This document shows, piece by piece, positions 31,801 to 34,800 of a stretch of DNA of 64,000 bases (position 1 is the stretch's first letter; each line of letters opens with the position of its first letter). A program made the translations under genes and the position numbers. Source of the DNA: Salvelinus alpinus (Eukaryota > Chordata > Actinopteri > Salmoniformes > Salmonidae); NCBI RefSeq assembly GCF_045679555.1, contig NC_092120.1, positions 11,827,305-11,891,304 on the forward strand, written 5' to 3'. A model generated the notes under the pieces. The model saw nothing but the letters and a program-made list of their open reading frames with translations, had not been told where the DNA came from and did no database searches.

Positions 31801-34800
31801 TTGCTGTCTAACACATGGCGTCCCTATTTGTTCCGATCCTTCTGTGTTTTTTTTCTCAATGTGTTTGTCCCTGTCAGATACCTGGCCTACCGTAACTTCA
31901 TGATCGACACGTACCGGCTCAACCCCCAGGAGTACCTGACCTCCACCTCCTGCCGCAGGAACCTGACGGGAGACGTGTGTGCCGTCATGAGGTGAAGGGT
32001 CAAGGGGTTAACGTGAAATGGATTCCCTAGGGCAGAAGTTAGGACATTGTTCGTCAGGGCACACCGTATGCAAGACACTTTGTAATATGTGTTGTTTTTA
32101 TAGGACACGTTTAGGTTGTCCCTTACTGTTCCAGTTAATTTTTTCCCGTTTGGTGCTTAATGAATATGACCCAGGTTTAGTTGGACTCACTGATCAAGAG
32201 TGATGATTGTGGAGTAAATTCTTTGCATATATCTGTCATGTCTCTCTACTAGGGTCCATGCGTTCCTGGAGCAGTGGGGGCTGGTGAACTACCAGGTGGA
32301 TGCTGAGAGCCGCCCCCTCCCCATGGGCCCCCCGCCCACCCCCCACTTCAACGTGCTGGCTGACACCCCCTCTGGCCTGACGCCGATGCACCACCGCCCC
32401 CCACAGGTTAGATAGACAACTACATGGAGCTATGGTCATATTTCTTTCATCTGTCTAGTCCTTTCAGGTTGTTGGATACTGAGGGAGTAGGGGCTAGGGG
32501 AAGGGTCTTTAAACCCAATCCTGTTAGTGCCGATAGCGAATTATATCCAAATACACATACAGGCGTTGTGTGTATGTAACCGTTGATTTTGATTATTTAA
32601 TGGGTCATACATGTTGTGAAAGTATTCACTGCATCCTCTGACCACAGTGTGATTCCTTTCAACCTCCCCCCTGTCTCTCCATCCATCCTTCTAGATCCCC
32701 TCTGGCCAGCAGATGCTCAACTTCCCAGAGAAGGGCAAAGACAAGCCCTCTGACATGCAGAACTTTGGCCTGCGTAATGACCTCTACTCCAAGAAGAACC
32801 CCAAGAGTAAAGGAACCAGCGGCGGCCGAGAGTGGACCGAGCAGGAGACTCTGCTCCTATTGGAGGTATGTCAGTCACAACAGACCAGCTGACCAATCAC
32901 AAACATAATCTAAAACCTACCAGCCTATCAGAGCCCTTCTCATTCCTCCATCTCCTCCCTACCAGGCTCTGGAGATGTACAAAGACGACTGGAACAAGGT
33001 GTCGGAGCACGTGGGCTCGCGCACCCAGGACGAGTGTATCCTGCACTTCCTGCGTCTGCCCATCGAGGACCCTTACCTGGAGAACTCTGAGTCGTCCCTG
33101 GGCCCCCTGGCCTACCAGCCCGTACCCTTCAGCCAGTCAGGCAACCCCGTCATGAGCACCGTGGCCTTCCTGGCCTCCGTGGTGGACCCCCGTGTGGCCT
33201 CCGCTGCTGCCAAGGCAGCCCTGGGTACGTGTTGTGGGGGCTGGGTACGTGTTGTGGGGGCTGGGTACGTGTTGTGGGGACTGGGTACGTGTTGTGGCGA
33301 CTGGGCACGTGTTGTGGCGACTGGGCACGTGTTGTGGCGACTGGGCACGTGTTGTGGCGACTGGGCACGTGTTGTGGCGACTGGGCACGTGTTGTGGCGA
33401 CTGGGCACGTGTTGTGGCGACTGGGTACGTGTTGTGGCGACTGGGTACGTGTTGTGGCGACTGGGTACGTGTTGTGGCGACTGGGTACGTGTTGTGGCGA
33501 CTGGGTACGTGTTGTGGCGACTGGGTACGTGTTGTGGCGACTGGGTACGTGGGTCATTTGCAAGGGTGTTTTATCACAATGTGTTGATTCACAAAATATA
33601 TATTTTTAATTTGTATGTAATATCACGCTTCATGTAGTGTGTCGTAATATCGCTGTGTGTTTGAACATATCTGTGTGTGTGTGTGGAGGAACTATCACAA
33701 GGTGTGAGTCTGTAGCTAACTACAGTGTCTCCCTCTCTCTCCAGAGGAGTTTAGCCGTGTGCGTGAGGAGGTGCCAGCAGAGCTGGTGGAGGCCCATGTG
33801 AAGAAGGTGCAGGAGGCGGCCCGCAGCACGGGCAAGGTAGACCCCGCCTATGGCCTGGAGAGCAGCGGCATCGCAGGAACCGCCCCCGAGGAGCCCGAGA
33901 AGACCGGTAACACACACACTCGGAGCAGAACACATGCATTCAGATATTCGTACACACAGTCACACATTTGCAAAGATGGATAAAAAATACTCTTGTGCGT
34001 ACACAAACATAAAAACGATCACACGGTATACAACATTGATCGGGAGGGGGGGAAACAATAGTTATATATTGGGATAAAAATTTTTTTACTGTTTTGTCAA
34101 GATCACTATTTTTGCGATAGTTGGTTGTACCTGCACCAAAACTCCAGTATTTTTTCTTCATAGCTCATTCTCCATCTTTTTAAATAAGGAGCCAATTTGA
34201 TATCAGCAATTTTATTTCCATGACTGATAGACTCGTTTTCATGGCTCTCTTGTCTCTGCAGAAGACCTCTGGTGAGCAATTTGTTTGGAACATCAAATCT
34301 CAATAAAGTCACAGTATCGAATAGCAATACATATAGAATCGTGTAAACACACAGGCCTTCATATAAACACACAAAAGCATTCTCTCATCACATACATCCA
34401 ACATACTCATGCATGCAATACTCACTCACACAAAATACCCACCCATATACACACCCCCCACATTTAGACGGAGTACTGAGTGTTACCAGTGGAGGGCAGC
34501 AAATGGCCAAGACACAGACAGCCCACAGCTAACAGGTTAGGGCGAGGCTGCTCGTAGCCAGCTGTCCGCAGGTCACCTTATACCTACCTCCTGCGTGTGT
34601 GTGCGCTCACGTGGGTAAAGCCAGATGTTTATTCTCACCAATACATTTTGAGGTACCAGCTGAAATCAGGATGGCCAGTGGGGGGCGACGTAGAGGTTTC
34701 TTCCGAGTGTTATGTCTATGTGTCCGGCTGTCGTGGTAACCAGTGGATTAGAACAGCAGATGGGGCGTGGGGGAAGGGGTTGAAACTGGGTCAACACACT

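Follow-up and report, generated by a model that had tools for sequence, protein, structure and literature searches.

What happens to an exon when its own splice donor becomes the unit of a tandem repeat? The question is raised by a smarcc1-type gene of the fish Salvelinus alpinus, which lies in the window, the whole 64,000-nt stretch of DNA analysed here. At the end of one exon of this gene stands a 20-bp minisatellite of 16.5 copies, with 98% matches and zero indels by TRF. The structure of this array, its absence from a nearly identical duplicate gene, the reading frames that it opens and the precedents from human genes each bear on how the exon is likely to be spliced.

A minisatellite that repeats a splice donor

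As a repeat, the array is not a chance product. A script listing places 17 unit starts at 33221 + 20n, each with the motif CTGGG(T/C)ACGT. The original prediction held that the unit opens with the exon's final four bases plus its donor, and that this donor is repeated 17 times, with six consecutive units having GC in place of GT. Both statements were borne out. CTGG occupies 33221–33224 and is followed by GT, and each repeat joins these 4 bases of the exon to the donor GT and another 14 bases of the intron. The donor position is GT in 11 units (n=0–3 and n=10–16) and GC in the six consecutive units between them (n=4–9). With a unit size within about 10–100 bp and a start at the exon's own donor, which it repeats, the array fits the pattern of the splice-donor minisatellites of ABCA7 and IFI6 (Table 1).

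AG is absent from the whole array, which therefore supplies additional donors and no acceptors and can give rise to no new intron within itself; splicing inside the array was ruled out on this ground. G-runs downstream of the donor were found by a scan only in units 1–3 and in the last partial unit, and the units after the first three carry GGCGA in their place. The RNA of the array region is predicted to fold somewhat better than shuffled sequence (z −2.14, with 2 of 100 shuffles as good).

Table 1. Features at the donor array and its host exon (positions in the window)
Feature	Position	Strand	Basis
20-bp minisatellite, unit CTGGGTACGTGTTGTGGCGA	33221..33551	+	TRF, unit list
First donor GT, common to the C4 copy	33225..33226	+	Unit list, C4 sequence
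Units 1–3, with a G-run (5, 5 and 4 G) past the donor, compared with 4 G on C4	33221..33280	+	Unit list, C4 sequence, G-run scan
Block of six units in a row whose donor position reads GC, not GT	33301..33420	+	Unit list; U1 pairing −2.7 kcal/mol
Final partial unit with the 17th donor (GT at 33545), merging into intron sequence shared with C4	33541..33551	+	Unit list, C4 sequence
Exon upstream of the array, 259 nt, coding for the end of the SANT domain and the region after it; last bases CTG G	32966..33224	+	Translation, 6lth_N and 2yus matches, five homologous genomic exons
Intron holding the array, 520 nt	33225..33744	+	Unit list, C4 comparison
Next exon, 162 nt, same phase at both ends	33745..33906	+	Frame analysis

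Identity of the host gene

When the exon end at 33224 is joined to 33745, the reading is in frame and aligns without gaps to human SMARCC2 (6lth_N, 612–750; E 2e-76). The solved SANT domain 2yus (subfamily C) matches codons 1–44 of the array-bearing exon (E 7e-24). With both the SANT domain and the region that follows it matched, the encoded protein is of SMARCC type; the joined protein has 7 structure matches, a full-length SMARCC1 chain not being among them. We tentatively take the gene to be smarcc1 rather than smarcc2, an assignment made from characteristic residues and with the help of the copies on C2 and C12, which look SMARCC2-like (SALEEFSRMKEEVP-type sequence). Two details of the earlier description need qualifying. 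The number 18 given to the exon was not confirmed, the exon chain held in common with the C2 paralogue making it at least the 15th. The repeat was also placed directly after the SANT region; it does lie downstream of SANT, but about 42 codons separate the SANT match from the exon–exon junction.

A duplicate gene with a single donor

The exon has five matches in the genome: the copy in the window (C35) and those on C4 (98%), C2 (93%), C12 (92%) and C26 (83%). The last of these (locus L013, 1501–1900) is followed by an intron of about 70 nt that starts with GTACGTG and by a different exon sequence. The duplicate gene, to which the original prediction had pointed as a check, has a single donor here on C4 and lacks the donor array. 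The C4 exon end is followed by GTACGTGTTGTGGGGCTGCGTGTGTGGGTCATTTGC, comprising one donor, an apparent diverged half unit and, after these, the sequence found downstream of the array in the window. The C4 intron measures 241 nt versus 520 nt in the window, and the flanks on both sides of the array are collinear with C4. TRF detected no donor array in the C4 intron, its sole row being a weak GT-rich repeat at 44976034–44976082 (2.5 copies, 73% matches). Given the one donor on C4, the array is private to the C35 copy within this genome. The contrast of 17 donors on C35 with 1 on C4 is one between duplicate genes and not between alleles. The intron start GTACGTG is also present on C26, so the donor sequence looks old; the introns on C2 and C12 start with GTGAGA.

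The array may have arisen on C35 or been lost on C4, and the homogeneity of its units would favour recent growth. The distribution of G-runs and GGCGA would fit an array that was seeded at the exon edge and grew from there, newer unit types spreading later. Similarly, the six identical GC units would fit a single T-to-C change that was spread by unequal exchange.

Across 16 coding segments (756 codons), C35 and C4 differ by 28 synonymous and 8 non-synonymous changes (pS 0.055, pN 0.0045), in a comparison where some segment edges are approximate and a few intronic bases are possibly included. The eight segments within 31405–38576 hold 15 synonymous and 0 non-synonymous differences. Both copies look to be under purifying selection, and splicing must therefore still mostly work. 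By the same comparison, the C35 gene appears to remain functional and its coding sequence does not visibly bear a cost from the array, although the array may be of recent date.

The C35 copy carries four minisatellites in or just after the gene, starting at 33221, 35417, 39547 and 41855 (20-, 50-, 80- and 53-bp units), and TRF on the homologous C4 stretch found no counterpart of these four. It looks as if repeat growth favoured the C35 copy. The array at 39547–40348, with 10.1 copies of its 80-bp unit, lies in a later intron of the same smarcc1-type gene; between its start and the true acceptor at 40690 it offers 10 CCACAG and 10 TTCCAG sites that resemble acceptors, and its core is single-copy on C4. 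Minisatellites with units of 10–100 bp and at least two copies make up 4.5% of the window, 0.8% of the 40 kb surrounding the C4 copy of the gene and 4.6% of the 40 kb surrounding the C2 copy.

Placement by chance and similar repeats elsewhere

The flush position of the array at a donor is just mildly unlikely. In random placements of the window's own arrays of at least 5 copies (one array entered as two overlapping rows) relative to 16 mapped donors, an array started no more than 6 nt from the corresponding position at one of these donors in 2.2% of trials, and some array covered a donor in 39%. For one chosen window the arrangement is uncommon, but genome-wide its recurrence by chance is expected. 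Over about 37,000 windows (2.37 Gb / 64 kb), many such cases, perhaps hundreds, would be expected under neutral placement, a crude figure extrapolated from a gene-rich window.

Of 35 genome matches to the array, 28 lie on C28 at 69–74%. These were rejected as relatives, the two of seven loci inspected (L002 and L005) containing a different, G-rich minisatellite (GGACTGGGGAGGGTTGGTGT-like). Loci L002–L008 (C28, about 46260700–46267400) belong to a long G-rich minisatellite with a unit of about 20 bp that extends over several kb and matches through composition only. Six other matches (two on C9 and one each on C21, C29, C31 and C27) were likewise set aside, their TRF units being different (22, 40 and 2, 21, 22, and 25 bp). 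The C9 region contains CTGGGTACGT twice, and locus L022 on C9 holds at 243–1101 a minisatellite with 39 copies of a 22-bp unit, ATGGGGCTGGGTACGCATTGGT, that partly resembles the smarcc1 unit. Among the 35 genome matches, no dispersed family of the smarcc1 array unit was found.

Donor choice and reading frame

All GT units carry the identical 9-mer TGG/GTACGT, whose pairing with the 5' end of U1 has an energy of −5.8 kcal/mol; the GC units reach just −2.7 kcal/mol. The case for the GC units as donors is thereby weakened. The array donor ranks 10th of the 16 mapped donors of this gene by U1 pairing and 14th by a donor weight matrix, the nearest GT having served as exon end for the other donors. 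At 33702 there is a GT that looks stronger (7.6 by the same matrix), but at about 43 nt from the acceptor it was set aside as too close.

Predicted pairing in 150-nt windows gives donor 1 a fully unpaired probability of 8e-3, versus 3e-2 to 8e-2 at units 3, 4 and 11–16. Values lower still, about 3e-3, are predicted for unit 2, for unit 17 and for the single donor on C4, which would all be more hidden than donor 1. G-runs act as donor enhancers, and competition between equal donors can go to the one closest to the acceptor. Donor 1 would be favoured by its ancestry, by its downstream G-run (which units 2 and 3 likewise have) and by the usual size of the exon that it defines. The sequence arguments point both ways, and human precedent is the best guide.

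Each downstream donor would lengthen the exon in 20-nt steps, every third of which is in frame, and a script found no stop in any forward frame of the array; both points agree with what had been claimed. However, 42% of shuffled 20-mers are also stop-free in all three frames, so the open frames are unremarkable and selection for them is not needed. Three of the ten additional GT donors preserve the frame (n=3, 12 and 15, or donors 4, 13 and 16), and use of donor 4 would insert 20 aa. With the remaining seven, translation would meet a stop in the next exon, at its nt 55 or 8. An early stop with exons downstream triggers NMD, which is expected for these seven donors because further exons follow. 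Insertions that preserve the frame would require use of donor 4, 13 or 16 (or of a GC donor) and are expected to be rare. The Cys/Trp/Gly/Val-rich insertion proposed for in-frame read-through is thus compatible with a stop-free array and with the steps available, but seven of the ten extra GT donors break the frame. Skipping of the next exon keeps the frame, since its 162 nt begin and end in the same phase.

Splice-donor minisatellites in human genes

The closest precedent is the intron-18 VNTR of ABCA7 (PMC5954066), which has a 25-bp unit beginning with the donor GT of exon 18. Its length is polymorphic, at about 12 to 427 units, and it has been reported to be a risk factor for disease. In ABCA7, retention of one unit affects 2 ± 1% of transcripts, rises under NMD block and is independent of array length, whereas skipping of exon 19 grows with array length and reaches 12% in cell lines, 29% in hippocampus and 45% in BA10 (PMC5954066). 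The fish array resembles ABCA7 in that a minisatellite sits on an exon's own donor and makes each unit a potential donor, in that the unit length is not a multiple of 3, so that one extra unit shifts the frame, and in that loss of the next exon leaves the frame intact. It differs in belonging to another gene and organism and in its evidence, with transcripts measured for ABCA7 and 16.5 copies read from the DNA of one assembly for the fish. Additionally, the fish unit includes four exonic bases, six of the fish units have GC, and the fish gene has a single-donor duplicate.

A second precedent is IFI6 (6-16, G1P3), whose minisatellite was reportedly described by Turri, Cuin and Porter in 1995 as a source of multiple splice donors. 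Two downstream units of the IFI6 minisatellite serve as donors, as stated in PMC4526556. IFI6 and the fish gene thus share multiple splice donors derived from a minisatellite at an exon end, but use of downstream donors is documented in IFI6 and predicted in the fish array. The IFI6 unit is 12 nt long and every step keeps the frame, whereas the 20-nt steps of the fish array mostly break it. Splice-site sequence duplicated beside the original also underlies tandem alternative donors and the gain of introns through tandem duplication; the cases described in excerpts of PMC2423196, PMC4974935 and PMC2891723 concern one or a few duplicated sites or a new intron, whereas the fish array lacks AG.

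The kind of arrangement is therefore already known from human ABCA7 and IFI6, and the fish array looks like a further example. Among the 12 papers listed out of 4,810 literature matches, smarcc1 was unmentioned, a weak negative. Excerpts of PMC11506328, PMC3618361 and PMC3045353 yielded no further donor-minisatellite case; the last of these mentions minisatellites in fish growth-hormone introns.

Competing explanations

With a probability of roughly 0.6, the array is best explained as the ordinary expansion of a minisatellite that was seeded on a splice donor by happenstance, with the first donor mostly used and minor leakage in splicing. The array would be tolerated because its growth went into the intron, and in most transcripts it would be spliced out from the first donor. 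A small share would use the next GT units, mainly those at +20 and +40 nt, and would acquire a frameshift and a stop in the next exon and be removed by NMD. A minor and perhaps array-length-dependent share may lack the next exon, with the frame kept and 54 aa lost, in the manner of ABCA7. The 20-aa insertion via donor 4 would be rare, and the six GC units would largely be non-donors. The single C4 donor, the collinear flanks, the conserved coding sequence, the poorer U1 pairing of the GC units, the lack of AG, the early stops beyond seven of ten extra donors, the 162-nt length of the next exon, the G-runs after units 1–3 and the ABCA7 figures for one-unit retention and exon skipping argue for this reading. 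Dominance of the first donor is opposed by predicted pairing, which hides donor 1, though the single C4 donor would be hidden too; moreover, the GT units are equal by local sequence, the array donor is not strong, and human precedents may fail to carry over to fish.

Donor 1 might instead be the only one used, leaving the other copies as inert intron sequence. This is rather unlikely. It is favoured by an ancestral donor that stands alone on C4 and recurs as GTACGTG on C26, by the conserved coding sequence and by the G-run kept in units 1–3; it leaves ten further GT units with an identical 9-mer silent, when both human precedents use some downstream units. At the other extreme, the original prediction envisaged appreciable use of downstream donors, with 20-aa Gly/Val/Cys/Trp-rich blocks diversifying the protein in frame. 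Its account of array position, counts, steps and open frames stands, and the stop-free array, the three in-frame GT units and the greater predicted accessibility of units 3, 4 and 11–16 are consistent with it. Yet a protein-diversifying ladder is quite improbable: most extra donors break the frame, stop-free units are common among shuffles, one-unit use in ABCA7 is small, and the C4 copy does without an array.

An error of assembly in the array or its copy number is very improbable. Tandem arrays are easily mis-assembled, but 331 bp is short relative to long reads, the units follow an order by type in which those resembling C4 lie next to the exon, and the flanks are collinear with C4. It is scarcely credible that the array acts in DNA as a cluster of transcription-factor sites, although its 17 ACGTG cores at 20-bp spacing include six full CACGTG boxes, motifs that we take to be HIF or bHLH cores, and CpG observed/expected is 1.22 in the array versus 0.40 in the window. 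Against this, the motif is a by-product of the donor GTACGTG, which occurs singly on C4 and C26.

A more ambitious proposal is that the array forms a splicing switch tuned by repeat number, which separates the outputs of two near-identical duplicate genes. We regard this as improbable. If it were true, array length would set the share of C35 RNA that is productive, exon-skipped or extended by 20 aa, and would make the dose or form of a BAF-complex subunit heritably variable.

Significance

Minisatellites seeded on splice donors seem to have been described rarely, with two human genes found in the literature. The main value of the fish array is its single-donor control copy: a 98% identical exon with one donor, in a duplicate gene within the same cells, is a built-in control. 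This pair of genes could show how a choice is made among 11 equal competing donors, and what an array of donors costs.
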